Assembly: GCA_036377595.1 (NCBI GenBank)
Contig: DASUYB010000001.1
Coordinates: forward strand, 1 to 64,000
Direction of reading: 5' to 3'
DNA length: 64,000 bases
Origin: Longimicrobium sp.
GTDB lineage: Bacteria; Gemmatimonadota; Gemmatimonadetes; Longimicrobiales; Longimicrobiaceae
Positions 1,246 to 26,411 of this stretch are shown one piece after another (the first letter of the stretch is position 1; each line of letters opens with the position of its first letter). The position numbers were made by a program, and so were the translations under genes. The notes under the pieces were generated by a model. The model was not told the origin of the DNA. It saw nothing but the letters and a program-made list of their open reading frames with translations, and did no database searches.

Positions 1246-1320
1246 TGCCCCCGACAGGACTTGAACCTGTGACCTTCGGTTTAGGAAACCGCTGCTCTAT
1301 CCTGGCTGAGCTACGGGGGC
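1246..1320 (-). tRNA. tRNA-Arg (anticodon CCU)
   Basis: The 75-nt minus-strand sequence folds as a full cloverleaf. The acceptor strands GCCCCCG and CGGGGGC pair perfectly, with discriminator A. The D arm is GCTC/GAGC. The anticodon arm GCGGT-TTCCTAA-ACCGA has one G-A mismatch at its base and anticodon CCU. The T arm is ACAGG-TTCAAGT-CCTGT. CCA is not encoded. It reads the rare AGG Arg codon. A promoter lies upstream and a terminator follows. Its first 34 nt are duplicated at 4920-4953. Confidence 0.93.
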
Positions 1321-1492: not shown

Positions 1493-1539
1493 TAGGCCCG
1501 GCCGGACTCGAACCAGCGGCCTCCTGCTGAGGAGGCAGT
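1493..1539 (-). pseudogene. 3' half of a tRNA-Arg(CCU)-like gene (tRNA remnant)
   Basis: The minus strand reads as the 3' half of a tRNA: anticodon arm ACTGC-CTCCTCA-GCAGG (anticodon CCU), variable loop AGGCC, T arm GCTGG-TTCGAGT-CCGGC, acceptor strand CGGGCCT and discriminator A. The matching 5' acceptor strand (AGGCCCG) and a normal D arm are not found upstream. Position 37 is C, where functional tRNAs carry a purine. The sequence differs from the intact tRNA at 1246, so it comes from another tRNA. I read it as a remnant left by an earlier insertion. The rest of 1540-1706 shows nothing recognisable. Confidence 0.5.
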
Positions 1540-1706
1540 CGCTTCAGCGTGTGTGCCGAGCCGACCGGGATGCCACAGGTGAGGTATGCGTTACCCGCTG
1601 CTTCGTAGCGCCCGGCGCGAAATGTGGGTCGTCCGCCATGCCCCGCCGGCTGTGGGTGCGGGCCGGACGGTCTCTGGTCGCGCCGTGAACCCACAAACCT
1701 ACCGCA

Positions 1707-2282
1707 TCAGACCGTACGCACGACTGTCAGCGTGAACCCACCCGCTTCGGCGCGCCGGCGGAAGTCCTCGGTCGCGTCGTTGTCGCCTCGCGGCGCTCCC
1801 TCCCACACCACGACCGCCGCACGCGGCCGCCGCGCGCCGTCCTCACCCGCCAGCTCCACCGCCAGTTGCACGATGCGCTCGTTGGCGCGGAGGTAGACCT
1901 CCGGGTCACCCGGATCGCCCGTGCCGACCTCCAGCCGGCCGGAGCGCCCGGCCTCGGCGATCAGCCGGTCGTACAGCGGCCCCCAATCGCCCGGCCGGTC
2001 CACCACCGAGGTAGCACGGAACGTCCGCGCGTCGAAGGGGAGCACCACGTGACCTTCGATCCCTGCCGCGCCCGCCGCCTCCAGTGCGAGCAGGTCGGCG
2101 CCGCACGCGGCCGAGCAGACCAGCGCCTGCACACCCGGCTGGAGCAGCGCCGCGAGCTCGCGGCGGACACGGGGGAACTCGCTCGCCGGGAAGCGGGGCC
2201 GCTCGGCATCGGGCGCATCCGGGCGGCGGCCTGCCAGCGCGACCACGGAGCCTGCCGGGAGCGTTGAAAGCAGAGGAGACAC
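1707..2282 (-). CDS. SLOG-domain (DprA/LOG-like) nucleotide-sensing protein
   Basis: This 191-residue protein has a Rossmann-like layout typical of the SLOG superfamily. A first strand and loop VALAGRRPD lie at about residue 14. CSAACGADLLALEAA follows at about 57, the position of the phosphate/nucleotide-binding turn. A core around GHVVLPFDARTFRATSV comes next, and a last strand VVVWEG lies at about 161. SLOG domains bind nucleotide-derived ligands, and in Thoeris the ThsA SLOG domain senses the signal made by the TIR protein ThsB. Here the SLOG stands alone with no SIR2 or other effector fused. The start is GTG, preceded by GGGAG at 5 bp. It is the last gene of a minus-strand operon with two TIR-like genes. 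The ligand is unknown. Confidence 0.72.
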   Translation of the reverse strand: MSPLLSTLPAGSVVALAGRRPDAPDAERPRFPASEFPRVRRELAALLQPGVQALVCSAACGADLLALEAAGAAGIEGHVVLPFDARTFRATSVVDRPGDWGPLYDRLIAEAGRSGRLEVGTGDPGDPEVYLRANERIVQLAVELAGEDGARRPRAAVVVWEGAPRGDNDATEDFRRRAEAGGFTLTVVRTV

Positions 2283-2360
2283 GGCGGCTCCCGCGTGGTG
2301 GAAAGCGAAGCGCGCCGCGCGACGGAGATCTGGTGACCGCCGCCGGCCGCGTCGGGATTG

Positions 2361-2780
2361 TCAGCCAGTCCGTGCGGCGACGGCCTGCGCGATGACGCGG
2401 TTCAGCGCGGCGCAGAAGGCATCCGAGTCCCACGGAACCAGCGGTGGGTTCACGGCCTCCAGTTCGGCCGGGATGCCGCCCAGGGCGCCCGGCGCCCGGA
2501 GAGCCACGATCCCCAGGCCGAGGCTGATCGCCAGCTGTGCCTCGCGGTTGATCCAGGGACTGTTGTGGGAGTTTTGCCCGCAGACGAACACGGCGGCGAC
2601 GCAGCCGTCCATCGCCCGGCGGATCTCATCGTCGATCGCGCGGTCGCCGCCGGCGGACACATCTTTTACGAAGCGCGGCGTGCCCTGGCATGGACCACGC
2701 GGCTGGAAGAACACACCGATGTTGTGGGCGTATTCCCGATCACTCACGAAGTTGTAGGAGATGAAGACCGGCGTGCTCAT
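2361..2780 (-). CDS. TIR-like (ThsB/DUF1863-type) protein 1
   Basis: This compact 139-residue protein begins with the TIR first strand and loop VFISYNFVSDREYA. A region with conserved charged residues follows (RFVKDVSAGGDRAIDDEI), then a strand AAVFVCGQNS, then SPWINREAQLAISLGLG. The last segment corresponds to the SKWVNWEI helix of the ThsB/DUF1863 family, whose Glu is the NADase catalytic residue in TIR enzymes. The predicted role is cleavage of NAD to make a signal, or a related TIR function. It lies 51 bp after the second TIR gene and 78 bp before the SLOG gene, all in one direction. It is divergent from its neighbour, so the two are not a recent duplication. The ribosome site is weak. 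Catalytic activity is inferred only from motif position. Confidence 0.75.
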   Translation of the reverse strand: MSTPVFISYNFVSDREYAHNIGVFFQPRGPCQGTPRFVKDVSAGGDRAIDDEIRRAMDGCVAAVFVCGQNSHNSPWINREAQLAISLGLGIVALRAPGALGGIPAELEAVNPPLVPWDSDAFCAALNRVIAQAVAARTG

Positions 2781-2831
2781 CGGTTCTATTCAGCGGCGGG
2801 TTGTGCGGGCCTGGAAGGTGCCGGGCGTCGC

Positions 2832-3248
2832 TCAGTAGTTGTTCGATGCAATCCTCAGCGCGTCCACGAGGCGGTCGCGCTCGAAGCTCGTGGCCCAGGC
2901 GGTGCCCGTTCCGAGGAGGCCGGGCGGAGTCGCGTTCGCCTTCGCGAGCTTCACCGCCGCGAGCTTCAGCTTCACATCCGGCTGCTTCGCGCGCTCGATC
3001 TCCCACGTCACCCACTTGCTGCAAGCAGTCTTCTCGCCGACGAGCACCAGGAGGTGAGTGGCGTCCTTCATCATGCGCGTCAGCACCTGCTTTACGGTCG
3101 CCGCGCGGACGCTGTCGATCGGGACGTCCGGCCCGCGGCTGTCGAACTCGAAGGCGAACTCCGGGTTCGCGTCCCATGCCTGGAGGAGCCGCTTGTACCG
3201 GGCATCCTCGCTGTGATCGTAGCTCACGAAGACTTTTTTCTTCGGCAT
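2832..3248 (-). CDS. TIR-like (ThsB/DUF1863-type) protein 2
   Basis: This 138-residue protein is a closer match to the ThsB/DUF1863 pattern than its neighbour. It has KKVFVSYDHSEDARYK at the N-terminus, VPIDSVRAATVKQVLTRMM in the middle, THLLVLVGEKTACSKWVTWE at about residue 75, then a strand KLAAVKL. The SKWVTWEIE helix carries the Glu expected to be catalytic in TIR NAD hydrolases. The open frame extends further upstream, but the family pattern begins at MPKKKVFVSY, so I chose the ATG at 3248. It is the first gene of the minus-strand TIR-TIR-SLOG operon and is divergent from the TRAFs-binding-like gene at 3388. Family knowledge suggests a signal-producing sensor in antiphage defence; that role is inferred here. 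Confidence 0.8.
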   Translation of the reverse strand: MPKKKVFVSYDHSEDARYKRLLQAWDANPEFAFEFDSRGPDVPIDSVRAATVKQVLTRMMKDATHLLVLVGEKTACSKWVTWEIERAKQPDVKLKLAAVKLAKANATPPGLLGTGTAWATSFERDRLVDALRIASNNY

Positions 3249-3387
3249 GATTCCCGGGTGCGACAGGGAAACGCTTGCTTGCGCTCGGACGCATAGATAT
3301 GCGATTCTTGATCCTGGGGCAATATTGACGCAAGCAGCGCGCTCCAACACCCGCTTTCAGTCTACCGCCAGACCCGGAGACGTCCGC
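3249..3387. promoter_or_regulatory. Divergent intergenic region between the two conflict-system transcripts
   Basis: These 139 bp separate the leftward TIR-TIR-SLOG operon from the rightward gene at 3388 and must hold both promoters. The stretch around 3295-3335 is more AT-rich than its surroundings and includes a near-palindrome (gcatagatatgc) and ttgatc/caatattg elements. I could not fix a clean -35/-10 pair for either direction. Confidence 0.4.
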
Positions 3388-4788
3388 ATGCCAGCTGACA
3401 GCGCGCACGCTGAGACGGGCGGAACCTGCTTCGTCATCATGGGCTTCGGCAAGAAGACCGACTTCGAGACGGGGCGCACCCTGGACCTGGACAAGTCTTA
3501 CCGGAACATCATCAAGCCGGCCGCCGAGGCGGCCGGGCTGACCTGCATCCGCGCCGACGAGATCGTGCACTCGGGTGTAATCGACGTTCCCATGTACGAG
3601 CAACTGCTCAACGCCGACGTGGTCGTGGCGGACCTGTCGACCTCGAACCGGAACGCGCTGTACGAGCTGGGGATCCGCCACGCGCTGCGGCCGTACACCA
3701 CCGTCGTGGTGGCCGAGGACGGAAACAAGACCTTTCCCTTCGACCTCAGCCACCTCGTGTTCCGCCAGTACCGGCACCTGGGCGAGGACATCGGCTACGA
3801 GGAGGTGATGCGCTTCCGCGAGGAACTGACGATCGCGATCCGGAAGATCATGGCGGAGAACCCGCGCGCCCCGGACAGCCCGGTGTACACCTTCCTGCGG
3901 GGGCTGCAGCCTCCGGCGGTCGCCACGGCCGGGGGTGTCGCACCCGAGACCGACGTCCGGGCCGATGCGACGCATAGCAGCCTGATGCAGCAGGTGGACG
4001 AAGCCCAGGCACAGGGAGACTTCGAGACGGCGAAGACCCTGCTATCCACCGTCAGGCGGATGCGCCGCGAGGCTCTGCGGGCCGCGCTCGCGCCCGAAGG
4101 CGCGGCGGTTGCCGGGGCCGAGCCGCCCGAAGATGCCTATATCCTCCAACGTCTGGCGCTCGTCACCTACAAGAGCAAGAGCAAGAAGCCGGACGAAAAG
4201 ACGGCGCTCCTCGAAGCGCAGGGCCTGCTGAGGCTGCTGGACCCGGAGACGTCGAACGACCCGGAGACGCTGGGGCTGTGGCAGGCGGTGCATAAGCGCC
4301 TGTGGACGCTCACCGGCGAGCGCCGGCACCTCGATGAGGCGATCCGAGCGGTAGAGCGCGGGTTCTACCTGCGCAACGACTACTACAACGGCATCAACCT
4401 GGCCTTCCTGCTGAACCAGCGCGCCGTCGCGCAACCGGACCCGGCGGAGGCGATCGCCGACTTCGTGCAGGCGCGAAGGGTCCGCCGCGAGGTGCTCGCG
4501 ATCTGCGACAGGTGGATCGAGACGAACCCGGGACCGACAGGGAAGGACGCAACGCCCAAGGCGGTGAAGCAATACGAGGCGGGCCGGTACTGGGTCCTCG
4601 CGACGCGCGCGGAGGCAGTCCTCGGCCTGGACGGCGAGGAACAGGCGCAGCCGTTGCTGGAGGAGGCCTTCGCGAGGGCGCCCGAAGACTGGATGCGGAA
4701 GTCGACGGAGGAACAGGTCGGTGCGCTCCGGAAGGTGCTCGCCGACTCGCCGCTACGCTACTTGCGCTCCGGGCCGGCAGGGACCTGA
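3388..4788 (+). CDS. Deoxyribosyltransferase-like plus TRAFs-binding (DUF4071-like) protein
   Basis: This 466-residue protein has two parts. The first (about 1-165) is a nucleoside-deoxyribosyltransferase/SLOG-like Rossmann domain, with CFVIMGFG, the acidic pair in CIRADEI, and the typical DVVVADLSTSNRNALYELG segment. The second (about 200-465) is an all-helical repeat region with LLEAQGLLRLLDPETSNDPE, ALGLWQAVHKRLW-like helices and long Ala/Arg-rich repeats. It resembles the TRAFs-binding/DUF4071 domain and is of TPR type. Such proteins recur in bacterial conflict islands beside TIR and SLOG genes. The ATG at 3388 has GGAG 9 bp upstream; the frame is open to 3247, but that part is not family-like. 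It is the only gene on the plus strand in this island. The likely role is a nucleotide-binding sensor or scaffold. Confidence 0.75.
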   Translation: MPADSAHAETGGTCFVIMGFGKKTDFETGRTLDLDKSYRNIIKPAAEAAGLTCIRADEIVHSGVIDVPMYEQLLNADVVVADLSTSNRNALYELGIRHALRPYTTVVVAEDGNKTFPFDLSHLVFRQYRHLGEDIGYEEVMRFREELTIAIRKIMAENPRAPDSPVYTFLRGLQPPAVATAGGVAPETDVRADATHSSLMQQVDEAQAQGDFETAKTLLSTVRRMRREALRAALAPEGAAVAGAEPPEDAYILQRLALVTYKSKSKKPDEKTALLEAQGLLRLLDPETSNDPETLGLWQAVHKRLWTLTGERRHLDEAIRAVERGFYLRNDYYNGINLAFLLNQRAVAQPDPAEAIADFVQARRVRREVLAICDRWIETNPGPTGKDATPKAVKQYEAGRYWVLATRAEAVLGLDGEEQAQPLLEEAFARAPEDWMRKSTEEQVGALRKVLADSPLRYLRSGPAGT

Positions 4789-4919
4789 CCGGCCCACGCC
4801 CCGCAGACCGGTGCGCGCGAGATCACCGACTCCACCCGTCATCCGGCCGGGCGCCCTGCCCACGCGTTTACGGCCCTCCTGACGAAAGTTCAGGAAATTG
4901 GGCCCAGCATGCTCAAGGG
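4789..4919. other. Gap downstream of the conflict gene, no feature seen
   Basis: No gene, RNA or clear terminator is visible. Only a weak 5-bp hairpin (cctga...tcagg near 4878-4894) occurs. The segment ends where the duplicated tRNA fragment begins. Confidence 0.5.
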
Positions 4920-4953
4920 AACCGCTGCTCTATCCTGGCTGAGCTACGGGGGC
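4920..4953 (-). pseudogene. 5' half of tRNA-Arg(CCU), truncated in the anticodon loop
   Basis: The 34 nt are identical to the first 34 nt of the tRNA at 1246-1320 (acceptor 5' strand, D arm, anticodon 5' stem and first loop base). After GCGGTT the sequence becomes unrelated (CCCTTGAGC on the minus strand). No 3' half follows, so this copy cannot make a tRNA. A break in the anticodon loop is a position commonly used by tyrosine-type integrases. Confidence 0.85.
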
Positions 4954-4986
4954 GATCGTCGCGGAACGCGTGCGACAGGCCCTAAA

Positions 4987-5015
4987 ATTCAACCAAAAAC
5001 CCGAGGCGCGGTCTA
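4987..5015 (-). promoter_or_regulatory. Decayed second copy of the tRNA-Arg promoter
   Basis: TAGACC (5010-5015) and TTGAAT (4987-4992) on the minus strand keep the exact 17-bp spacing of the functional copy at 1355-1383, but each hexamer is further from consensus. It now sits in front of a truncated tRNA, so any transcript would run into the conflict gene in the antisense direction. Confidence 0.55.
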
Positions 5016-5050
5016 CCTGACCGCGCCCTTCCAGCTCGCCAGGCGCCGGC

Positions 5051-5082
5051 GCGGGCGGCGGAGGCAGTGCCTCCCCCGCGCC
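5051..5082 (-). terminator. Possible terminator behind the ABC ATPase gene
   Basis: A compact GC-rich hairpin (GGAGGC-ACT-GCCTCC core with flanking GC pairs) lies 23-54 bp after the stop of the ATPase. No T run follows, so it may only attenuate transcription or be a remnant of the duplicated block. The matching block at about 1425-1450 can also form a hairpin. Confidence 0.35.
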
Positions 5083-5104
5083 CCGCCGGCCCGCCGGACC
5101 ATGC

Positions 5105-6022: not shown

Positions 6023-8755
6023 CTATTCCATCCGCAGCACCTGGTTCGGCTCGATCGACGTCGCCCGGCGGGCGGGGAGCCAGCTGGCCACCGCCGCCGC
6101 CCCCAGCGCGCCGAGCGCCACGGCCACGTAGGTGAGCGCGTCCGTCCCCGAGACCCCGTAGAGGAGGCTCGACAGCAGGCGCGAGCCGAACAGCGCCGCC
6201 GCCGCTCCGATCGCCACGCCCAGCGCGGCCAGGCGGACCCCCTCTCCCACCACCATCCGCAGCACGTCGCCGCTGGTGGCGCCCAGCGCCATGCGGATCC
6301 CCAGCTCGGGCGCGCGCTGGACCACGGCGTACCCCAGCACCCCGTTGAGCCCCACCAGCGCCAGCAGGATCGCCAGCCCGCCGAACACCATCAGCAGCAC
6401 GGTGACGAAGCGGGACTGCGCGGTCTTCCGCAGCAGCGTCTCGTGCAGCGGCTCCACGCCGTACAGCGCGATCTGCGGGTCGAGCGCGCGCAGCACGCCG
6501 CGGACCGCCGGCACGACGGACTCGGGCTCGCCGCGGGTGCGCACCAGGAGGGTGGCGTGCGCCATCGGGGCCTGCGCCAGCGGCACGTACACGGCGGGCT
6601 CACTCTCGCGGTCGAGGCCGCGGAAGCGCTCGTCGCCCATCACCCCCACGATCTGCCAGCTGACCCGCCAGAAGCTGATCTGCTGCCCGATCGGGTCCGC
6701 TCCCTTGAAGTAGCGCTCGGCCGCCGCGCGGTTGATGACGGCCACGCGGGCCGACTTCACGTCGTCGCCGTCGCGGAAGGCGCGGCCGGAGATGATCGGC
6801 ACCCCCAGCGTCCGCTGGTAGGTGGGGGTGATGAAGCGGGTACGGATCTCGGGGTGCGCGCCCGACTCCTCGGCACGCCCCTCGATCGCGAAGGAGTTGG
6901 TGATCCCCGCGTCGAGCGGATCGACGCCCGCCAGCGCGGCCGACTCGACGCCGGGGATGGCCGCCACCTGCCGCAGCAGCTCCGCGTGGAAGTTGTTGAT
7001 CTTGGGGAGGTCGGGCCACGTGGAGAAGTCGACCGGGTAGCGCGTCTCCGGCAGCTGGTACTCGGCCTTCAGCACGCCGGTGGTGCGGAACCCCGGATCG
7101 ACCCGCCGCAGCTCGCGGAAGCTGCGCAGGAGCAGCCCCGCGCCGATCACCAGCGCCACCGCCAGCGCCACCTCGGAGACCACCAGCCCCGCCCGGAAGC
7201 GCCGCGCGCCGCGCCCTTCCGAGGTGCGCGTGCCGCCGTCCTGGAGCATGGTGCGAATGTCGGCACGGCGGGCGTGGATCACGGGCACCATCCCGAACGC
7301 GATTGCCGCCACGGCGGCGATGGCCGCGGTGAACGCGAGCACCGTCCCGTTGATGGACACCGACTGGAGACGCGGGATCGAGGCGGGCGCCATCGCCACC
7401 AGCACCTTGAGCGCCGCCAGCGCCAGCAGCACGCCCGCGACCGCGCCGAAGAAGGTGACCACCAGGCTCTCGGTGAGCAGCTGCAGGGAGATGCGCGCGC
7501 CCTGGGCGCCGAGCGCGGTGCGCACCGCCAGCTCGCGGCGGCGCGCGGTCATGCGCGCCAGCAGGAGATTGGCCACGTTGGCGCACACCACCAGCAGGAC
7601 CAGCGCGGCCGCGCCGAGCAGGATCATCAGCGGCGTGCGGCTGTCGCCGAACACCACGTCGGTGTACGAGGCCACGTTCACGCCGCGCGCCTTGTTCTCC
7701 GGATAGCTCTTCTCGAGATCCGCCGAGATCCCCGCGAGCTCGCGCTGCGCGGCGGCGGCGGTGGTTCCCGGCGCGAGGCGGCCGACGGTGAGGAAGGGAT
7801 GCGTCTCGCGGGGGAAGGCGTCGGCCGAGGGCTCGAGCGCCAGCCACACCTGCACCTCGCCCCCCGCGTAGGTGGCGGAGTAGTCGGCCTTGGCGTGGAT
7901 CTGCTCGACCCCCAGGCTGGCTTCCGCCGGGAGCACGCCCACGACGGTGGTGGGTTTCTCGTTGAGCACCACCGTGCGGCCGACGATCCCCCGGTCGCCG
8001 TTGAAGCGGCTGCGCCAGAACCGCTCGCTGAGGATGGCCACCGGCGCGCCGCCGGCCGCCCCCTCGCCCGCGTTGAAGAGTCGACCCGCGATGGGCTGCA
8101 CGCCCAGCACCGAAGGGAGGTTGGGCGTCACGCCCACCGCCGACAGGCGCTCGGGATCGCGTCCGGGCGTGGCCAGCGTCGCCTCCATCCCCGTGAGCGC
8201 GCCGATCGCCGTCACCGTGCGGCTCCGCTGGCGGAAGTCCTGGATGTCGGGCCAGGAGGCGGGCTCGTGCCGGGTGTCGCTGTTCCGGTCCGTCTCCCAG
8301 ATCATCACCAGGCCATCCGGGTCCTTGAACGGCGGCGGCTGCAGCAGCACCGCGTCGACCACGCTGAACACCGCCGTGTTGGCGCCGATCCCCAGCGCGA
8401 GCGAGAGGACGATCACCGCCGTGTAGAGCGGGTTGCGGCGCAGCAGCCGCAGCGCGTAGCGGATGTCGCTCCACCGCGACTCCAGGAACCCGCCGCCGCG
8501 CGCCCTGCCCGGCGCGGCCGGCTCCGGCGCGGAGGTGCGGGCGGCGCCGCCCATCACCCGCCCCAGCATCTCCTCCCTTTCCAGCCCGGCGATCGTGTCG
8601 CGGACCGCCTGCTCCTCGGGGACGCCGCGGGCGAGCAGCTCCTGGTACCGGCCTTCCGCCCGCCGCGCCAGCTCCTCGCCGATCCGCGCCTCTTCGGCGG
8701 GATCGAGGCGCAACCCGGCAAGGCGCTTGCGAACCTCGTTGCTCCAGTCGTTCAT
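6023..8755 (-). CDS. ADOP-family (MacB/FtsX-like) ABC permease
   Basis: This 910-residue permease is of the ADOP type (acidobacterial duplicated orphan permease). A cytoplasmic N-terminal helical part (about 1-95) with RIGEELARRAEGRYQELLARG is followed by YALRLLRRNPLYTAVIVLSL and the LGIGANTAVFSVVDAVLL segment that marks the first MacB-like unit. A periplasmic core, an FtsX block, a second periplasmic core and a final FtsX block ending LPARRATSIEPNQVLRME follow. Eight membrane segments in two sets of four are expected. GAGGG sits 8 bp before the ATG. This family is greatly expanded in Acidobacteriota and Gemmatimonadota and is often encoded without an ATPase; here an ATPase gene follows. The transported substrate is unknown. 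Confidence 0.9.
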   Translation of the reverse strand: MNDWSNEVRKRLAGLRLDPAEEARIGEELARRAEGRYQELLARGVPEEQAVRDTIAGLEREEMLGRVMGGAARTSAPEPAAPGRARGGGFLESRWSDIRYALRLLRRNPLYTAVIVLSLALGIGANTAVFSVVDAVLLQPPPFKDPDGLVMIWETDRNSDTRHEPASWPDIQDFRQRSRTVTAIGALTGMEATLATPGRDPERLSAVGVTPNLPSVLGVQPIAGRLFNAGEGAAGGAPVAILSERFWRSRFNGDRGIVGRTVVLNEKPTTVVGVLPAEASLGVEQIHAKADYSATYAGGEVQVWLALEPSADAFPRETHPFLTVGRLAPGTTAAAAQRELAGISADLEKSYPENKARGVNVASYTDVVFGDSRTPLMILLGAAALVLLVVCANVANLLLARMTARRRELAVRTALGAQGARISLQLLTESLVVTFFGAVAGVLLALAALKVLVAMAPASIPRLQSVSINGTVLAFTAAIAAVAAIAFGMVPVIHARRADIRTMLQDGGTRTSEGRGARRFRAGLVVSEVALAVALVIGAGLLLRSFRELRRVDPGFRTTGVLKAEYQLPETRYPVDFSTWPDLPKINNFHAELLRQVAAIPGVESAALAGVDPLDAGITNSFAIEGRAEESGAHPEIRTRFITPTYQRTLGVPIISGRAFRDGDDVKSARVAVINRAAAERYFKGADPIGQQISFWRVSWQIVGVMGDERFRGLDRESEPAVYVPLAQAPMAHATLLVRTRGEPESVVPAVRGVLRALDPQIALYGVEPLHETLLRKTAQSRFVTVLLMVFGGLAILLALVGLNGVLGYAVVQRAPELGIRMALGATSGDVLRMVVGEGVRLAALGVAIGAAAALFGSRLLSSLLYGVSGTDALTYVAVALGALGAAAVASWLPARRATSIEPNQVLRME

Positions 8756-11368: not shown

Positions 11369-12504
11369 CGTGTCGGCCGTGTCGGCTGGGGGGAGAGGAA
11401 GGGCGCGAGCTGCGCCGCACCGAAGTGCTCGCGCACCCAGGCGTCGGAGAAGATGGTGTCGAGGTAGCGCTCGCCGCGGTCGGGGAAGACCAGCACGCAG
11501 GTGGCGTGGGGCTCGATCTCGTCGCGCAGCGCGTGCAGCGCCATCAGGATCCCCCCCGACGAGCCGCCTGCCAGGATCGCCTCCTCGCGCAGCAGGCGGC
11601 GGCACCCGACCACGCAGTCGAGGTCGGTCACCTGGACGAACTGGTCGCCGAGCGAGGGATCGTGCAGCTCGGGCATGCGCGCGGTGCCGTGGCCGGGGAT
11701 CAGGCGCTTGCACGAGCGGCCGCCGAAGATCACGCTCCCCACCGCGTCGACCGCCACGATGCGGGTGCGGAGCCCCGTCTGCCGCACGTATTCCGCGCAC
11801 CCGCGCAGCGTGCCGCAGGTGGCGGTGGCGCAGAAGAGGTAGTCCACGTGCCCGCCGGCCTGGTGGACGATCTCGGCCATCGTCCGGTGGTGCGAGCGCG
11901 AGTTGTTGTGGTTGGCGTACTGGTTGGGCCAGAAGCAGTTCGGCTCCGTCTCCAGCCACTGGCGCACCCGGTCGAGCTTGGCCTGGAGGAGGTCGCCCGT
12001 CACGGGATGCGGCTCGGTGACGACGTCGACAATCGCGCCGTAGGCCCGCAGGATGTCGATGTTCTGCGTGGTCGTCCGTGCGTCCACCACGCAGACGAAG
12101 CGCAGCCCCTGGTAGGCGCACACCTGCGCCAGCCCGATCCCCATGTTCCCCGAGCTGGCTTCCACGACGGTGGTGCCGGCGTCGATCTCGCCCCGGGCCA
12201 GCGCGTCGGAGATGATGCGGAGCGCGGGGCGGTCCTTGATGCTCCCGCCGGGGTTGAAGGCCTCGAGCTTGGCGAACAGGCGGAAGGGGACCCCGCCCAG
12301 CGCCCGGCGGAGGCGGACCAGCGGCGTGTTGCCGATGGTGGCCAGGATCCCGTCGCGCGCCGGGCCCGACTCGGGGAGGACCACGCCCGACACGCTGAAG
12401 CCGGCCGGCAGGCCGTCGCCGTTCGTCGCGTGGACGCCGGGCTCCAGCGCCCACGCGGACCGCGCGGGGGGATCGAGCACGCTTTCGTGACTATCGGTTT
12501 TCAT
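11365..12504 (-). CDS. sbnA: SbnA-like PLP synthase (2,3-diaminopropionate pathway)
   Basis: This 379-residue fold-type II PLP enzyme has the Schiff-base Lys at K90 in GGSIKDRPA, the substrate loop SSGNMGIGLA, and a late GGSSGG phosphate-binding turn. SSGNMG and the VDARTTTQNI region follow SbnA/cysteine synthase-like N-(2-amino-2-carboxyethyl)-glutamate synthases, which join O-phosphoserine and glutamate. The partner SbnB would oxidise that product to L-2,3-diaminopropionate. An extra segment of about 50 residues precedes the usual start (ILATIGNTPLV). GGAG sits 6 bp before the ATG. No SbnB homologue is in the window, so the final product is uncertain. A cysteine or cystathionine synthase role is the alternative. 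It is cotranscribed with the NRPS genes. Confidence 0.8.
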   Translation of the reverse strand: MKTDSHESVLDPPARSAWALEPGVHATNGDGLPAGFSVSGVVLPESGPARDGILATIGNTPLVRLRRALGGVPFRLFAKLEAFNPGGSIKDRPALRIISDALARGEIDAGTTVVEASSGNMGIGLAQVCAYQGLRFVCVVDARTTTQNIDILRAYGAIVDVVTEPHPVTGDLLQAKLDRVRQWLETEPNCFWPNQYANHNNSRSHHRTMAEIVHQAGGHVDYLFCATATCGTLRGCAEYVRQTGLRTRIVAVDAVGSVIFGGRSCKRLIPGHGTARMPELHDPSLGDQFVQVTDLDCVVGCRRLLREEAILAGGSSGGILMALHALRDEIEPHATCVLVFPDRGERYLDTIFSDAWVREHFGAAQLAPFLSPQPTRPTR

Positions 12505-12642
12505 CCCCCGCTCCAGCGAATGGGTGGCCGGCGCGGCGCGCCCCGCCTGGTGATCGGTTCACGGTTCCGGGTGTGTGCGGGTTCGGGAGGCAGGGATCCG
12601 GTCGTCGGAGAAGACGGACCCCGCGGGGCGTGTGGGAAGAGG

Positions 12643-15270
12643 TCATGCGGCGGCCTCGCCCGTCGAGGTGCCGCCGTGGTCGACGACGACGATGCGCAGC
12701 TCGCTGACGTGGGGGCGTCCCTCGGCATCCTGCAGCCAGAGGTCGCCGGGAGCGGGGAGCATCTCGGTGACGCCCACCAGGTCGTCCGGCGCCCCCTGCT
12801 CGGCCTGGCGGCGCACCAGGCGGGCGAACTGCTCGGCGTAGACCGCGCTGTCGAGGTCCACGAAGCAGGGCTTGCGCTCCACGGGGACCTTGGTGAAGAC
12901 GAAGCGGGGGAGCCCCTGCGCGCGCGCCCACCGCCGCACCCCCAGGAAGCGGCCGGCCTCCGTCTTCTCGAAGGCGAAGCCCAGCTCGGCGGGGGCAAAG
13001 CGCCAGGTCTCGCGCGAGATCACCAGGCGGTCGATGGTGCGCCGCGGCACATACCGCCCCTCGGTCAGCACGCCGAAGGAGTGGGTGACGATCCCCCCCA
13101 GCGGCTCGCCCACCAGGTCGAGGATCCCGAAGCGGTGCGCGCCGTCGCGCGAGCGCACGCGCAGCTCGCCGCCGACGTCCTCCACCACCAGCGCGGAGAG
13201 GGGAAGGCGGGGCGAGCCGCGGGGCGCCAGCGAATCGCGGCTCCACTCCAGCCGGAACGCCTCGGGCGCCAGCAGCGCGCGCACCGTGCGCGCGGAGAAG
13301 TCGCCGAACTCGCGGGGCTCCACGGGCACCACGTGCGCGCCGCCCAGGTCCACCCCGATGGCCGCCGCCAGCGTGTCGGGCGCGGGGTGCTGGTGGGCGA
13401 AGAGCGAGGCGGCCAGCGTGTTGGCGGCCAGGTGGCACTCGCCCATCACCAGGTGGAAGTCGCCGCGGGCGATGGCCTCCGGGCCGGCGGCCGCGATCAT
13501 CAGGTCGGGCGAGTGGTAGCGGGCCATGCGCCACCCCGGCGCCGCCGCGGGGAACGCCGCCTCCACTCGCGGCCGCAGCTCGGCCGCGCGGGCATGGACG
13601 CGGCGCGCCGATGGCTCGGCGGCCAGCAGCCCGTCCCAGCGCCGCTTCAGCTCGTCGAAGGCGGGGTGGAAGAGAGCCTCCCGCCGGGTGGTGAAGGTGC
13701 CGGTGAGGCGCAGCCAGAGGCGGGTGGCGTCGACCACGGGCGAGCCGTCGCTCCGCGCCAGGTCGTCGTAGATCTCCCGCGCCACGCGCGTGCAGATCTC
13801 CGCGCACTCCACCGTCACCCAGCGCGCGCTCTGCAGCAGCAGCGACAGCGGCTCGTCCAGCGCGCGCAGCAGCTCCGGCCCCAGCCGCACCTGGGCGTCG
13901 CGGCGGCAGTCCTCGTAGACCAGCGTGCGCGCGGCGTACATCGCCCCCGCCGAGCGCGTGGGCGCAACGCCCGTCATCTCCGTGAAGGTCTCGTCCAGCC
14001 GGCCCAGCGCCGGGCCCAGCGCGCGCCAGTCGCCCGCCGCGGCGCTCACCTCGCCGCGCGCCGACTCCAGCGCGTCGAGCTTCTCCATCGCCTCGCGCCG
14101 CAGCGCCTCGTCGCCCACGCCCTCGATCCAGCGCCGCAGCACCCGCTCGGGGTGCACGTCCCAGGGGATGTAGAGGCCGAACCAGATCAGGCCGCGGCTC
14201 TCCATCTCCCGCAGGTGCCGGAAGACGTCGGCCTCGCCGCGCAGGGGGCTGCCGGGGAGGCGCACCAGCACCCGGGCGATGTCGCGCGCCGCGCGGGTGC
14301 CGTCGCACATCGACAGCGCGGCGGCGTCGGCCAGCGGGAGGGAGACGGCGCCGTAGACGGGGTGGTGGAGGACCGTGCCGTCCACGCGGATCGTGGGGAT
14401 GCGGACCGGCCGGAGCCAGGGGTGATAGTCCTCCCGCGCGGAGAGCGACGCCGCCAGCGCCTCGATCCCCCACATCTCGAAGTAGGTCCGGCGGGCGGCC
14501 ACCAGCCCGGGCCCCGGGCGCGACACGATCGGCGCGCCCTCGTCCACCAGCTCGGCCCAGCCGACGGGGCCGAAGAAGCCGATGGTGTCGTTCTTCACGC
14601 AGTAGCGCTGCACGTAGCTGGCGAGCAGGCTCTCGTGCTGCCGCTGCTTCGAGGCGCGCGGCCCGTCCTCGTGCGCGGCCAGGAGCGGGTCGAGCGCGGT
14701 GAGCAGCGCCTGGCGGTTCTGCCAGGTCACGGCCTCGCGCAGGCGGTCGGAGGCGGCGAGCTCGCGCAGCACCTTCGACGTCTGGCGCAGCCCGGCGGCG
14801 TGGCCGCGCTCGAACGCCGCGGCCGCGGGGGCCAGCGCCTCGCGGGCCTGTCGAGCCTCCTCCACCCGCTCCGCTATCGCCGGGGGGAGATCGCCCGCCG
14901 GCAGCTTCCCGGCCTTCACCCGCGAGCGCGCGTCGAGGAGCGGGTGGCGCGCCGCGGCATCGTCCCAGCGCCCCTCCGCGCGCAGCGTATCCAGCGCGGC
15001 GTTGATGCTCTCCAGCAGCGCCCGCTCCGCCTCCCCCGCGCGGCGCTCCGCCTCGAGCAGGGCGTCCGCCGCGTGAGCGGCCTCGGGCGCGGCCAGCCGC
15101 AGCGCGTCGGCGACGGGGAAGCCGGCGCCGCGCAGCCCGGCGCAGCGCCAGAACGCCAGCCCGCCGGGACGGACGCGGACCAGGTGGCCGGGGAGGGGCG
15201 GCGGGGTCTCCTCCGCGGCGCGGTCGGCGAGCGCGAGCCCGGCCGCCTCCGCGTATTGCAGGTCACTCAT
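12643..15270 (-). CDS. Short LanB-like (lantibiotic dehydratase N-domain) protein
   Basis: This 875-residue protein looks like the tRNA-dependent glutamylation part of class I lanthipeptide dehydratases. Recognisable parts are RYCVKNDTIGFFGPVGWAEL at about 205, the RRTYFEMW segment, HPVYGAVSLPLADAAAL, LIWFGLYIPWDVHPERVLRR and the late FTKVPVERKPCFVDLDSAVY. I see no C-terminal SpaB_C-type elimination domain, and 875 residues leave little room for one. Such short LanB proteins include the PEARL enzymes, which add an amino acid from aminoacyl-tRNA to a peptide. No precursor-peptide gene is obvious, so the acceptor may be an NRPS product. GGAG lies 6 bp upstream, and the exporter gene ends 26 bp away. 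Function is inferred. Confidence 0.7.
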   Translation of the reverse strand: MSDLQYAEAAGLALADRAAEETPPPLPGHLVRVRPGGLAFWRCAGLRGAGFPVADALRLAAPEAAHAADALLEAERRAGEAERALLESINAALDTLRAEGRWDDAAARHPLLDARSRVKAGKLPAGDLPPAIAERVEEARQAREALAPAAAAFERGHAAGLRQTSKVLRELAASDRLREAVTWQNRQALLTALDPLLAAHEDGPRASKQRQHESLLASYVQRYCVKNDTIGFFGPVGWAELVDEGAPIVSRPGPGLVAARRTYFEMWGIEALAASLSAREDYHPWLRPVRIPTIRVDGTVLHHPVYGAVSLPLADAAALSMCDGTRAARDIARVLVRLPGSPLRGEADVFRHLREMESRGLIWFGLYIPWDVHPERVLRRWIEGVGDEALRREAMEKLDALESARGEVSAAAGDWRALGPALGRLDETFTEMTGVAPTRSAGAMYAARTLVYEDCRRDAQVRLGPELLRALDEPLSLLLQSARWVTVECAEICTRVAREIYDDLARSDGSPVVDATRLWLRLTGTFTTRREALFHPAFDELKRRWDGLLAAEPSARRVHARAAELRPRVEAAFPAAAPGWRMARYHSPDLMIAAAGPEAIARGDFHLVMGECHLAANTLAASLFAHQHPAPDTLAAAIGVDLGGAHVVPVEPREFGDFSARTVRALLAPEAFRLEWSRDSLAPRGSPRLPLSALVVEDVGGELRVRSRDGAHRFGILDLVGEPLGGIVTHSFGVLTEGRYVPRRTIDRLVISRETWRFAPAELGFAFEKTEAGRFLGVRRWARAQGLPRFVFTKVPVERKPCFVDLDSAVYAEQFARLVRRQAEQGAPDDLVGVTEMLPAPGDLWLQDAEGRPHVSELRIVVVDHGGTSTGEAAA

Positions 15271-15296
15271 CGGTGCTCCAGTCGGGGGCGCGCACG

Positions 15297-16985
15297 TCAG
15301 GCGGGCGCGAGCTGCGCGGCGGCGAGCGGAAGCTCCTCCACGCCGCCGTCGTACACGATCTTCCCGTAGTCCAGCCGCACGATCCGGTCGGCCACGCCGT
15401 AGTAGCGGTCGTCGTGGGTGATCACCACCACCGCCTTGCCGCGCGCCTTCAGCCCGGGAAGGATCTGCGCGTAGAACACCTCCTTGAACAGCGGGTCCTG
15501 GTCGGCCGCCCACTCGTCGAACAGGTAGATGGGGCGGTCTTCCAGGTAGGCCGTGAGCAGGGCCAGCCGCTTGCGCTGCCCCTGCGACAGCTCGGTGGTC
15601 GAGAGCGCGCCCTCCTCCACGCGGACCTTGCGGTCCAGGTGCAGGCGCGCCAGGTAGGCGCGCGCGTCTTCGTCGAGCCGCTCGCCCTCCAGGCCGAGGA
15701 GCACGTCGAAAAGGAAGAAGTCGGAGAAGACGGCGGAGAAGAGCTGCCGGTACGCGTCGGCATCCGCCGGGCCCACGCGCCGGCCGTCCAGGCGGATCTC
15801 GCCGCTCTCGGGGGCGTAGAGCGCGGTCAGCAGCTTGGCGAAGGTGGTCTTGCCGCTGCCGTTGCCGCCCACCACGAAGAGGAGCTCGCCCGGCCGCAAC
15901 GCCAGGTCGATGGGGCCCAGGGTGAAGACCTCGTCCTCGTTCTCGCGGTGGAAGCGGTGGGTCACGCCCACCATCTCCAGCGAGCGGAACGACGGCGCCG
16001 CAGCCGGCGCGGCATCTCCCTCGCGCCCGTCCTCGCCCAGCGACAGCCCCAGCTCTTCCACCGCCCGCACGGCGATGGCCCCGCGGCCCAGCGAGGCCAA
16101 CTGGTTCATCAGCACGTCGAGCGGGGTGAGCATGTAGAGGATGGCCAGGGTGTAGCCGGTGAGCACCGGCTGCGGCACCCCGCCCATCCGCGGCGCCAGG
16201 AAGAGGACGGCGCCGATCAGCACGAAGAACAGCACCTGCCCCCAGCAGTTGGCCAGCGCGTAGATCGTCCCGCCGGCCACGTTGTGGTCGCGCAGCTTCG
16301 CCACCGTGGGGCCCAGCTGCCGGGCGACGAAGGCCTGGCGGCGGGGATGGTGCAGCTTCAGCTCCTTGGTGCCGTCGACCAGTCCGCGGAAGTGCCCGAA
16401 CAGCGCGTCCCAGGTCTGCCGGCTCTGGCGGAAGTGGCGCAGCGCCCACACCAGCGGGAGCTGGTAGGAGACGATCCCCACCACCACCGCGGCCAGCACC
16501 AGCCCGAACACCCGCAGCGACAGCCAGGCCATGTACGCCAGGCAGCTGACCACCACCGTGCCGTGAAGGAAGACCATCGGCACGTTGGTGAGCGCCAGCG
16601 TGAGCGTCTGCACGTCCTCGGTGAGCGACGCCAGCATGCGCGGCGCGCCCAGCGTCTCGAGCCGGCGCAGCGGCGCGGAGATGATCTTCCGCGTCAGCCG
16701 CAGGCGCAGCTCCGACGCCGTGGCCTGGGTGAGCCGGATGAGCAGCACCTGCGACACGAAGCGCGACACCGGCAGCAGCACGCACAGCGCGCCGAACGCC
16801 GCCCACGCCCGGGCGTCGTTGCGGGCCGGGTGGGCCAGCATGTTGTTGATCAGCGTGAGCAGCACCGTGCTGGCCGCGCCGCCCACCACGCCCAGCGCGA
16901 CCACGGCCGCCAGCCGTCGCGCCGCGCGCCCGGGATGGTCGGACTGGCGGAGAAGGAACGACAGCAGCGTTACGAAGTGGGGCAC
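15297..16985 (-). CDS. PvdE/SyrD-type cyclic-peptide ABC exporter
   Basis: This 562-residue half-transporter has six membrane segments fused to an ATPase. The membrane part (about 20-315) is followed by Walker A GGNGSGKTT near 375, the signature ELSQGQRKRLALL near 465, and Walker B IYLFDEWAADQDP near 492. LSQGQRKR and the DEWAADQDP box are hallmarks of the cyclic-peptide export family (PvdE, SyrD), which moves nonribosomal peptides or their precursors across the inner membrane. The start is GTG with GAGGTG 6 bp upstream. It lies 40 bp after the thioesterase-terminated NRPS, so the peptide made by this operon is the expected substrate. An ABC toxin exporter is less likely given the signature box. 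Confidence 0.92.
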   Translation of the reverse strand: MPHFVTLLSFLLRQSDHPGRAARRLAAVVALGVVGGAASTVLLTLINNMLAHPARNDARAWAAFGALCVLLPVSRFVSQVLLIRLTQATASELRLRLTRKIISAPLRRLETLGAPRMLASLTEDVQTLTLALTNVPMVFLHGTVVVSCLAYMAWLSLRVFGLVLAAVVVGIVSYQLPLVWALRHFRQSRQTWDALFGHFRGLVDGTKELKLHHPRRQAFVARQLGPTVAKLRDHNVAGGTIYALANCWGQVLFFVLIGAVLFLAPRMGGVPQPVLTGYTLAILYMLTPLDVLMNQLASLGRGAIAVRAVEELGLSLGEDGREGDAAPAAAPSFRSLEMVGVTHRFHRENEDEVFTLGPIDLALRPGELLFVVGGNGSGKTTFAKLLTALYAPESGEIRLDGRRVGPADADAYRQLFSAVFSDFFLFDVLLGLEGERLDEDARAYLARLHLDRKVRVEEGALSTTELSQGQRKRLALLTAYLEDRPIYLFDEWAADQDPLFKEVFYAQILPGLKARGKAVVVITHDDRYYGVADRIVRLDYGKIVYDGGVEELPLAAAQLAPA

Positions 16986-17025
16986 GTAGACACCTCGGGG
17001 ACGGGTGGGCGCGCGCGGCGCGGGC

Positions 17026-20000
17026 TCAGACGCATGCGGCCTCGCCGAGCGCCGGCGCGGGCTGCTGCGCGCCGTCCAGGCTGGCGCGCAGCAGCCCCGC
17101 CAGCACCTGCACGTGCGGCCGCTGCAGGATCAGGTCGTGGTTCCCGGGCACGTCGACGATCTCCAGTCCCCCCTCCGCCAGCGGCCCCCAGCCGAGCGTG
17201 GGGTCCGCGTCGCCGTCGCCGTGGCCGTCGAGCGAGCGGAAGAGGGTGATGGGGCCCGGGTACGGCCGCAGCTCGTAGCGCTGCTTGGCCTCGCTGTGGC
17301 GGATCCCCGCGCGCAGGTAGCGCAGCGCCACGTCCGCGGTGACGCCGGGGGGGAAGACACCGTGATCGACGGCGTAGGCCACCTGCGCCTCCACCCCGCC
17401 GGCGCGCCGCAGCTCGTCGGCGGTCACGGGGCAGCCGGGGCGCGCGAAGCGCAGGATCACCTCGGCCCAGTCGGCCGCGGTGGACCGCGCGTTCAGGCTG
17501 GTGTCGAGGATCGCCAGCAGGGCGACGGACTCGCCCGCGGCGGCGAGCTGCTGCGCCATCTCCAGCGCCACGAAGCCGCCGAACGAGTACCCGGCCAGGT
17601 GGTACGGCCCCTCGGGCTGCACCTCGCGGACGGCGGCCAGGTAGCTCGCCGCGATCTCCTCCAGGGAGAGCTCCGCGTCGTCGCCGCCCTGCCAGGGGAG
17701 CGACTGCAGCCCGTAGAACGGCTGGTCGGCGCCCAGGCACTGGGCCAGCTCCACGTAGCCTAGCACCTCGCCGCCCATCCCGTGGACGCAGAAGAGCGGC
17801 GGCCGCGAGCCGCTGGCGCGGATGGGGACGAGGGGTGACGAGGACGCCGGCGCGGACCGGTCGCGGAGGACGGCGGCGAGCCGCTGGATGGTGCCCGCGC
17901 CCAGCAGCACGGCGAGCGGAAGCTGGCAGCCGAACTCGCGCTCCACGGCCGCCAGCATCCGCACCGCGGCCGTCGAGTGGCCGCCCAGGTCGAAGAAGTT
18001 CTCCGTCACGCCGATGGGGCTGACGCCGAAGAGCTCCTCCCAGATCCGCCGCAGCCGCAGCTCCCACCCGTCGCACGGCGTCTCGTACGGCGTCTCCAGG
18101 GCGTTCCCCGCCTCGTCGGGCGCGGGGAGGGTGCCGGCAGGGATCGCCGGCAGCCGCACGAAGTACCGCGGCGCCAGGTGCCGCGGCACCCCGGCCCGCA
18201 GGAAGGCGCGCACCTCCTCGACGGCCAGGTCCGTCCCGGGCGCCGCGGCGAAGCAGGCCACCAGGTGGGCATCGCCCGCGGGATCGGTCCACGCGCGCAC
18301 CCGGGCGTCGGCGACGGCGGGGTGCGCCAGCAACCGCGCCCACACCGCCGGCGCCGCGTACGCCTCCTCGTCGCCCGTGCCGCGGAACTCCAGTCCCCCG
18401 CCCTCCCGCCGGCGGCCCAGGTCGCCGGTGCGGTACAGCCACGCGCCGGGACGCGCTGCGAAGGGGTTGGGGATGAACCGATCCGATTCGCTCTCCGGCC
18501 ACGGCTCGACGGCGCTCTCGACGCACACCTCTCCATCCACGCCCACCGGCGCGAGATCCATCTCGGCCGAGACGACGTGGAGCGCCCATCCCCCGACCGC
18601 CGAGCCGACGTCCAGCGGCGACGCGGCGGCGGAATCGGCCCCGTCCACCACCGACGCGGCGGCCCACGAGGGGATCCCGCCCGGCTCGTAGACCTTGAGC
18701 ACGCGCGCGCTCCGGCGGGCCAGCTGGCCCGCCAGGTACGCGCCCAGGGCGGGGCCCATGCTGATCGCCTTGAACTCACCGCCTCCGGACCAGCCGGCCT
18801 GCAGCAGCTCCAGCCACGCGGCCGGCTCCGCCTCGAGCACGGTCGCGTCCGACGCGTCCAGCGCCTGCAGCACCGCGGAGGCGTCCACAGCCGCTTCGGC
18901 CAGCGCGACGCTGCTCCCGGCCGCGAGCGCGGCCAGCGCCCGCAGCGCGGCGCGCACGTCGAGCGGTCCCGCGACCAGCACGCGGTCGCGCCGGCCGACG
19001 CCGAGGTGCCCTGACAGCGCGGCGACGCGCCCCAGCACGGGCTGCTCCGAGAGGCCGACGTGGAACCCGACCGCCGTTTCGACCCGGCAGAGCACGCCGC
19101 CGGGAGCCCCCGCGACGCCGTTCGGCCGCGGCACGGCCACGCATCCCGACGGGCTCAGCAACAGGTCGGCGCCATCTCCCGTCTTCCCTTCCCCGGCGAC
19201 GGTGAAGGCGGCGCCGCACCTGCGCGCGCCCAGCATGGCCGCGATCGCTTCGGCGGCGCGGGGGAACGAGAGCGCCACCAGCGTCCCCGGGCCGGCGCCG
19301 TGCTCGCGCAGCCGCGCCGCCACCTCCGACGCGCGCCGGTCGAGATCGGCCCAGGTGAGCCCGCCGTGCGCGTCCGTCACTGCGGGCTCGGCGGCGCGGC
19401 GGGCGGCCCACCACCCGATCAGCCCGTGCACGCTCTCCCCGGCGGGGCGAACGGGGGCCGGGCCGAGCAGGCGGCCGCGCTCGGCCTCGCTCAGCACCGG
19501 CACCTCACCCACGCTCCGCGCCGTCCCCCGCGCGAAGGCGCGCAGCACCGCGCCGATGCTGTCGGCGACGCGGGCCATCGCCCCCTCGTCGAAGCGCCGG
19601 GCGTCGTAGACCAGGCGGACGAGGAGCGGGTTGAGCGGCCCGGCGACCACCGTCACCGGATAGGCCGTCTCCAGCCGGCTGCGCACGCCCACCACGTCGA
19701 ACGGCGTCGCGGCGCCCGCTGCCTCGTCCGGAGACGGGCCGCCGGGCGTGTTCTGGAAGACGAGGAGGCTCTCGAAGAGCTGCTCGTGCGCGGGGCGTCC
19801 GGCCCACTGCGCCACGCTGGCCGGCGCGACCCACTCGTACTCGCGCACGCCCACCAGCGCCTGCTGCAGCTCGCCCAGCCACTGCGCCAGCGGCGTCTCC
19901 GGCCGCACCTGCGTGCGCACGGGGAGGTTGTTGATGAACATCCCCACCATCGTCCCCGAGCCCGGCAGGTCGGCGGGGCGCCCCGAGACGGTGGTGCCGA

Positions 20001-26396: not shown

Positions 26397-26411
26397 GTGT
26401 GGCTCCTTGGG

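Follow-up and report, generated by a model that had tools for sequence, protein, structure and literature searches.

Introduction

In characterised Thoeris systems, a TIR protein makes an NAD-derived nucleotide whose reader is a SIR2-linked SLOG domain, and one or several ThsB genes can be present (as outlined in passages of PMC11204291). We describe here a four-gene cassette that resembles Thoeris in some respects and departs from it in others; it lies in a 64,000 nucleotide stretch of Longimicrobium sp. DNA (contig DASUYB010000001.1, positions 1 to 64,000; this whole stretch is called "the window" below) and encodes a predicted SLOG protein (A), two TIR proteins (B and C) and a protein that joins a DRHyd domain to a tetratricopeptide repeat (TPR) sensor domain, TPR-S (D). 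Two other groups of systems are also relevant: nucleotide-centred SLOG/SLATT systems, reportedly described by Burroughs et al. in 2015, and TPR-S/DRHyd conflict proteins, which are said to be the subject of Burroughs and Aravind in 2020 (J Bacteriol). The pertinent part of PMC8195603 states that components of the ASK signalosome are of bacterial origin.

The cassette is like Thoeris in having ThsB-family TIR proteins, of which Thoeris can have one or several, and a SLOG protein as the presumed reader of an NAD-derived signal (parts of PMC11204291). It is unlike Thoeris in that it has neither a SIR2 nor a transmembrane (TM)-macro ThsA, its SLOG is a separate and YpsA-like protein, and its candidate effector is the DRHyd domain of the TPR-S protein. 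We rejected canonical Thoeris on the finding that no SIR2 or macro domain is present in the four proteins or in the products of the two flanking genes scanned (a response regulator and an ABC ATPase); a preliminary description of the locus, made from the DNA sequence, had called it a TIR/SLOG conflict-type cassette without SIR2, and for the four proteins this is so. Since there is no ThsA, we regard the cassette as Thoeris-like in its working and not as a member of Thoeris. With the TPR-S/DRHyd conflict proteins and the ASK signalosome it shares protein D, which carries both domains, the former of which is named a sensor by Pfam. With the SLOG/SLATT systems it shares a SLOG in a nucleotide-signalling setting, and SLATT/DUF4231 genes occur in relatives (genome G014 and several plasmids), but none of the four proteins is a two-TM SLATT protein. 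Swarozyc (a DUF4062 TIR-like NADase, in passages of the preprint PMC13174449) is similar in being TIR-like NADase defence, and a DUF4062 gene follows the related cassette of genome G081, but the window cassette has no DUF4062.

How new is this gene set? The preliminary description had called it undescribed, which is too strong: TPR-S and ThsB_TIR are named Pfam families, and a TIR-DrHyd-SLOG class is in print (a passage of PMC9503650). Nothing naming this particular set was found among the papers listed and in the profile libraries scanned, a scope outside which the contents of the J Bacteriol 2020 and NAR 2015 papers lay. The component families and their logic are already known, and the cassette looks like a variant nucleotide-signalled anti-virus alarm. 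Our favoured reading, held with moderate confidence, is that the four genes form a mobile anti-phage system (or one triggered by other invaders) that works by an NAD-derived messenger.

Four genes in a divergent arrangement

Four open reading frames (ORFs) were confirmed at positions 1707-4788 of the window, three on the minus strand and D on the plus strand (Table 1). The minus-strand genes are transcribed in the order C, B, A with gaps of 51 and 78 bp, and D is divergent from C at a spacing of 139 bp. Relatives of A, C and D are up to 48, 75 and 62% identical, respectively, which excludes chance ORFs, and all four genes are real. The start assigned to C is the ATG at which its relatives' alignments begin; its open frame extends further, to a possible start at 3350. 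The frame of D is likewise open upstream of the assigned start, from 3247. A consensus scan of positions 1500-5100 gave no sigma-70-like promoter site. The minus-strand TIR, TIR, SLOG set divergent from a deoxyribosyltransferase-TRAFs-binding protein, as first described, agrees with the ORFs, the Pfam scores, the predicted fold of A and the profile of D (below).

Table 1. Features of the cassette and of the DNA around it (window positions)
Feature	Position	Strand	Basis
tRNA-Arg (CCT), left island edge	1246..1320	-	
Left copy of 180-bp direct repeat: tRNA 5' half plus upstream DNA	1283..1462		
Gene A, predicted stand-alone SLOG protein, nearest fold YpsA, 191 amino acids (aa), GTG start	1707..2282	-	predicted structure, clade support
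Gene B, TIR protein (ThsB_TIR/TIR_2), 139 aa; putative catalytic Glu80 at 2541-2543	2361..2780	-	Pfam, PADLOC, alignment
Gene C, ThsB-type TIR protein, 138 aa; putative catalytic Glu83 at 3000-3002	2832..3248	-	Pfam, PADLOC, alignment
Divergent C/D intergenic region, 139 bp; putative promoter region	3249..3387		
Gene D, DRHyd (NDT/DNPH1-like)-TPR-S protein, 466 aa, possible resemblance to ASK1 N-terminal region	3388..4788	+	
DRHyd domain of D, ends approximate; E93 codon 3664-3666	3421..3882	+	alignment, profile against PDB
TPR-S (Tetratricopeptide Repeats-Sensor, PF20308) stretch of D	4108..4413	+	Pfam
Right copy of direct repeat: truncated tRNA-Arg 5' half plus upstream DNA	4916..5091		

B and C are ThsB-type TIR proteins

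Both minus-strand TIR proteins match the ThsB_TIR family PF08937 (B at 31.9 and C at 63.2 bits, cut-off 21.2) and the PADLOC ThsB models (E values of 9.4e-7 for B and 1e-15 for C), and they are the only two ThsB_TIR matches found in the host genome. Their best PDB matches are 8fz9 for B (a chain named "TIR", E 0.0044) and 8v6t for C (a chain named "Molecular chaperone Tir", E 2.8e-5). The putatively catalytic glutamate of the S-x-W-x-x-x-E motif is retained in both, and it is present in all 34 distinct ThsB-type TIRs that were aligned, B and C included. Thoeris type III was rejected: C scores 16.3 bits with the NCBIfam model ThcB4, whose cut-off is 220, and A, B and D give no match to it.

The ThsB matches of B and C, together with seven SIR2_2 matches in the host genome, would also suit a split Thoeris, with a ThsA-like SIR2 protein encoded elsewhere in the genome as the recipient of the signal from B and C. 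We judge this highly improbable: a SLOG (A) and a TPR-S are already within the cassette, and among the four of the seven SIR2_2 proteins that were examined none has a Pfam SLOG match and three carry receiver, pYEATS or TIR fusions (the former is a weak argument, because A too lacks a Pfam SLOG match). The host genome encodes further conflict-type proteins at loci L176, L177 and L178, in which SIR2_2 is fused to a response-regulator receiver, pYEATS and TIR_2, respectively.

A is predicted to have a SLOG fold nearest to YpsA

Searches with protein A gave nothing in Pfam, NCBIfam or PADLOC at E values up to 1, and these libraries may not model its clade. Its structure was predicted from an 11-row alignment with a mean predicted local distance difference test score (pLDDT) of 91.8, and DprA and ShosA take the top Foldseek ranks for this model. 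A second structural comparison places Bacillus subtilis YpsA (2nx2) first, with a Z score of 16.0 and a root-mean-square deviation (rmsd) of 2.7 over 151 aligned residues; DprA (Z 12.6), a molybdenum-cofactor carrier, LOG (Z 9.7) and TRPM channels follow. Against the SLOG domain of BcThsA bound to 3'cADPR (7uxs) the model gives Z 7.2 and rmsd 3.2 over 118 residues. A is therefore predicted to be a SLOG Rossmannoid protein whose nearest relative in fold is YpsA, and the YpsA-like clade includes members that sense cADPr (a passage of PMC9503650).

A SLOG need not be a reader, and A could instead be an off-switch that enzymatically breaks down either the messenger or some nucleotide by-product: the best-characterised SLOGs cleave a nucleotide N-glycosidic bond, and signal-degrading SLOGs have been proposed in viruses (both in passages of PMC9503650). 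We think this improbable, since the fold of A is nearer to YpsA than to LOG (above) and related SLOGs are fused in one chain with TPR-S and presumed effectors (below). In addition, the LOG motif is PGGxGTxxE, and inspection by eye finds no obvious copy of it in A.

D joins a DRHyd domain to TPR-S and has ASK1 as its first structural match

Protein D matches the TPR-S family at 71.6 bits (cut-off 27.6) and MAP3K_TRAF_bd (PF13281) at 25.6 bits, just over the cut-off of 24.1. By itself the window sequence of D gives no match to Pfam NDT, and its N-terminal domain was characterised with a profile built from 12 rows and run against PDB sequences at E values up to 5: 12 of the 14 matches are DNPH1, Rcl or 5-hydroxymethyl-dUMP N-hydrolases, at E values of 0.0025-0.07, and the ELG glutamate of D aligns with an ELG in both alignments shown. 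The DRHyd active-site residues D82, N87, N89 and E93 are invariant across 39 aligned D sequences. D-like sequences are also found in phages: 24 phage records (14 Staphylococcus and 8 Streptococcus by name) encode one, and the 15 matches listed cover only the DRHyd part, at 33-35% identity.

The predicted structure of D has a mean pLDDT of 83.0, lower in the N-terminal domain, and its first PDB match by Foldseek is human ASK1 (8qgy, E 2.3e-4, probability 1.00). In the second structural comparison ASK1 aligns over 333 residues within 16-460, the most among 50 rows, with a Z score of 12.5 that is tied with plain TPR proteins and an rmsd of 14.1; the two structures therefore either differ in how their domains are placed or leave that placement uncertain. 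TPR proteins fill the lists that Foldseek and VIA give for D, and some rows other than ASK1 also reach the N-terminal part.

It had been suggested at the outset that D may be a second sensor or a scaffold, and the Pfam "sensor" domain that it carries fits this. According to passages of PMC9503650, DrHyd conflict proteins act either as effectors with NADase activity or as ADP-ribosyl cyclases, whereas a sensor role is given to the inactive members of this class. Since the DRHyd active-site residues of D are kept, D is more likely a sensor plus an effector than a sensor alone.

The same active site can be read with the roles reversed, D sensing infection or making the nucleotide product, B and C being effectors that deplete NAD+, and the SLOG acting as a relay. 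TIR and TIR-like domains are effectors in many systems too (according to passages of PMC13174449 and PMC9503650), and the only PADLOC family that matches all 39 aligned D proteins is named "Effector" and described as TIR. No named system came out when these 39 proteins were scanned with NCBIfam and PADLOC. We hold this arrangement to be unlikely, though the strongest of the competing accounts, because the TPR-S of relatives is linked to domains typical of effectors (patatin, caspase or TIR) and because small stand-alone ThsB-type TIRs recur beside TPR-S proteins in the manner of Thoeris signal makers.

The SLOG/TPR-S core recurs with variable partners

The families of the cassette recur in the window's own phylum (G063 and G081) and in Acidobacteriota (L092), Bacteroidota (L049) and Pseudomonadota (L046; here and below G numbers denote genomes of the phylum and L numbers loci). 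Lack of co-occurrence elsewhere had been named in the preliminary description as what would tell against the proposal, and co-occurrence was found, in G081, G063, L092 and a Lichenicola plasmid (L046).

A profile of A matches seven of 395 phylum genomes, the SLOG labels in these genomes resting on BLAST matches to A, and in five of the seven (the window, G063, G081, G377 and G014) a TPR-S or DRHyd/TPR protein is fused or adjacent to the match; G309 has just a weak SLOG match, in a frame that also weakly matches SLATT. A tree of 20 SLOG domains groups A with seven others, a clade of eight with support of 100/100: the window, L092 (Pyrinomonadaceae), L086 (Microvirga), L084 (Chitinophagaceae), L046, G063, G081 and G181. 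Three of the 17 inner branches of this tree are starred, L138 is on a long branch and the L092 and L050 rows are unusual in composition, and only the split that defines the A clade is used here. A TPR-S or DRHyd/TPR protein lies beside or is fused to seven of these eight SLOGs, and five (window, L092, L046, G063 and G081) also have a ThsB-type TIR beside them.

The arrangements vary. In G081 a TIR 75% identical to C is followed on one strand by a SLOG, a DRHyd/TPR protein (20.3 bits with TPR-S, below the cut-off), two more TIRs and then a DUF4062 gene; this last gene, at 2942-5077 of L136, has a TPR match. G063 has a SLOG-TPR-S-Patatin fusion and then two TIR genes, the Lichenicola plasmid a C-like TIR, an A-type SLOG and a TIR-TPR-S protein, and L092 a SLOG, a ThsB-type TIR and a D protein. 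In G014 a DRHyd-TPR-S-SLOG fusion adjoins SLATT-type frames, and in L090 and L104 DRHyd and SLOG share one ORF with a middle that looks TPR-like by eye. G377 has a TPR-S-SLOG-Caspase fusion whose SLOG is outside the A clade and on a long branch; this single frame (6465-8705 of L138) adjoins a second large frame that matches a caspase/CHAT-type model. The common pattern is a core of SLOG plus TPR-S to which differing presumed killing domains are added, and TIRs often stand next to it.

Matches to C were found in six of 298 phylum genomes (the window, G081, G192, G063, G197 and G080). The C-type TIR adjoins a DRHyd/TPR or TPR-S partner in the first four, has no labelled partner in G197 and has SLATT in G080. 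Eight plasmid records match C at 1e-8: four Acinetobacter, one Lichenicola, two Planococcus and one Staphylococcus. By coordinates, the C-type TIR stands immediately before D in the four Acinetobacter records; one Planococcus and the Staphylococcus plasmid were viewed and have no TPR protein annotated within 3.5 kb, in PLSDB gene tables that are incomplete.

A scan of species genomes for D gave at least 344 relatives, of which the best 80 were kept for neighbourhood counts (SLOG with a model built from 14 SLOG rows). Within 2 kb of D there is a TIR at 24, a SLOG at 11, a patatin at 13 and a SLATT at 6 of these loci, and at least one of the four at 38; 15 of the 80 loci have less than 2 kb of sequence on one side. 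These families were chosen from the same neighbourhoods that were later counted, so a comparison of near with far DNA is the sole control. Sequence reaches 8 kb to either side of D at 52 loci, where the counts by gene midpoint within 2 kb versus equally long windows at 6-8 kb are 12 vs 3 for TIR, 9 vs 0 for SLOG, 9 vs 2 for patatin, 4 vs 1 for SLATT and 23 vs 6 for any family; counted by overlap they are 15 vs 4, 9 vs 1, 10 vs 3, 4 vs 1 and 26 vs 8, respectively. At L050 a 1772-aa protein with lipase-like, CHAT and TPR-S matches (12203-17518) lies downstream of a D relative and a SLOG.

D is also carried by plasmids: tblastn gave 63 plasmid records, of which 41 have matches spanning 80% or more of D and 31 are predicted to be conjugative. 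Eleven of the 63 were viewed, and a TIR gene lies within 2 kb of D in all 11 and within 500 bp in nine. Two or more TIR genes are present within 3 kb of D at 13 of the 80 genome loci and seven of the 11 plasmid loci; the two TIRs could answer to different phages. In the plasmid locus L037, PLSDB predicts a "GIM-2 beta-lactamase" at 7375-7476, which at 102 bp is likely a false prediction.

The cassette lies in a low-GC island at a tRNA gene

The cassette is bracketed by direct repeats that contain tRNA-Arg sequence (Table 1) and are identical in 153 of 180 columns (85%). The GC content between the repeats is 68.6% versus 75.1% in the rest of the window, where 17 non-overlapping windows of the same size have a mean of 0.751, a standard deviation of 0.010 and a minimum of 0.728. 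Integrating elements mostly duplicate the 3' half of a tRNA gene, so the duplication of a 5' half here is unusual. Inspection of the island by eye revealed neither an integrase nor any other gene for mobility. No empty integration site was identified in relatives: in G003 the left flank, the tRNA and the right flank each have their best DNA match on a different contig, and none of five tRNA-match loci with long flanks has both flanking genes. On the low GC content and the tRNA-containing repeats, horizontal acquisition of the island at the tRNA gene is likely.

Some other features of the window can be recorded. A tRNA-like 3' fragment, seen by eye and not called by ARAGORN, lies at about 1490-1545 and is possibly another integration scar. 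From about 17000 to 64000 there are very long minus-strand frames that by eye look like nonribosomal peptide synthetases, and a TauD-family dioxygenase gene lies within this region at 25371-26411.

Discussion

If the four genes work as the messenger-driven defence system that we favour, a plausible course of events is as follows. B and/or C would sense infection and convert NAD+ to a small nucleotide signal, as suggested by their family, the conserved glutamate and the Thoeris precedent. A and the TPR-S of D would then read this signal, together or in series, which is what the SLOG-TPR-S fusions point to. Reading would activate whichever effector is linked to TPR-S. In this cassette that is the DRHyd domain of D; it might cleave N-glycosidic bonds in NAD+ or deoxynucleotides, and growth would stop or the cell would die. 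By gene architecture, the presumed TPR-S-joined effectors of relatives, beside or in the same chain as a related SLOG, are a patatin lipase, a caspase and another TIR. A further, more tentative proposal is that A-type SLOG and TPR-S make up a two-part reader of a TIR-made nucleotide that drives exchangeable executioners (DRHyd, patatin, caspase and TIR); we see this as possible, with somewhat less than even prospects.

A number of observations weigh against the favoured reading. Data on defence, NADase activity or ligand binding were not found for any of the members. The relatives of B are distant, at 21-29% identity, and none is close, so its support is the Pfam and PADLOC matches. The preliminary description had put forward that no known defence system has exactly this four-gene set; the exact gene order was seen at no other examined locus, while the set of families, and only that, does recur. 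A TIR and a SLOG are both within 2 kb of D at just two of the 80 loci (L049 and L092). Within the A clade, L084 and L086 have D plus patatin and no TIR labelled within 6 kb, and the A-type SLOG of G181 has no labelled partner on a flank that is partly masked. TPR-S occurs in 10 of the 298 phylum genomes, nine besides the window, and in only two (G063 and G014) of eight of these loci are partners labelled, the ninth (G189) being left out. Finally, at 42 of the 80 D relatives none of the four partner families (TIR, SLOG, patatin and SLATT) lies within 2 kb, so D does not invariably belong to such a system and can exist outside a TIR/SLOG system. Cyclobacteriaceae make up 14 of these 42, 13 of them Algoriphagus, and most of the genes around D are shared from one of their genomes to the next. 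The 13 Algoriphagus loci and L119 (all among L101-L125) are chromosomal and have D relatives about 40% identical and no TIR or SLOG within 2 kb.

Might there then be no working immune system here, the island being a passenger or in decay, or D serving general stress or nucleotide salvage with TIR and SLOG as coincidental neighbours? The roughly half of D relatives that lack partners, the largely shared chromosomal setting of the Algoriphagus D and the lack of a mobility gene by eye in the island would all be accommodated, but the frames are open, the active-site residues are conserved, and the families recur across phyla, in fusions and on plasmids. We therefore give this account little credence.

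In this cassette the presumed reader, of the Thoeris kind, is a separate protein, and relatives join related SLOGs to an ASK1-like TPR sensor and to differing presumed killing domains. Because the gene sets are compact, the system can be tested in laboratory strains, and the cassette is an experimental handle on what TPR-S senses, and hence on possible past ligands of the ASK1 sensor region. If the two-part reader is true, these genes would represent a Thoeris-like signalling family with modular effectors that uses a bacterial forerunner of the ASK1 sensor region.

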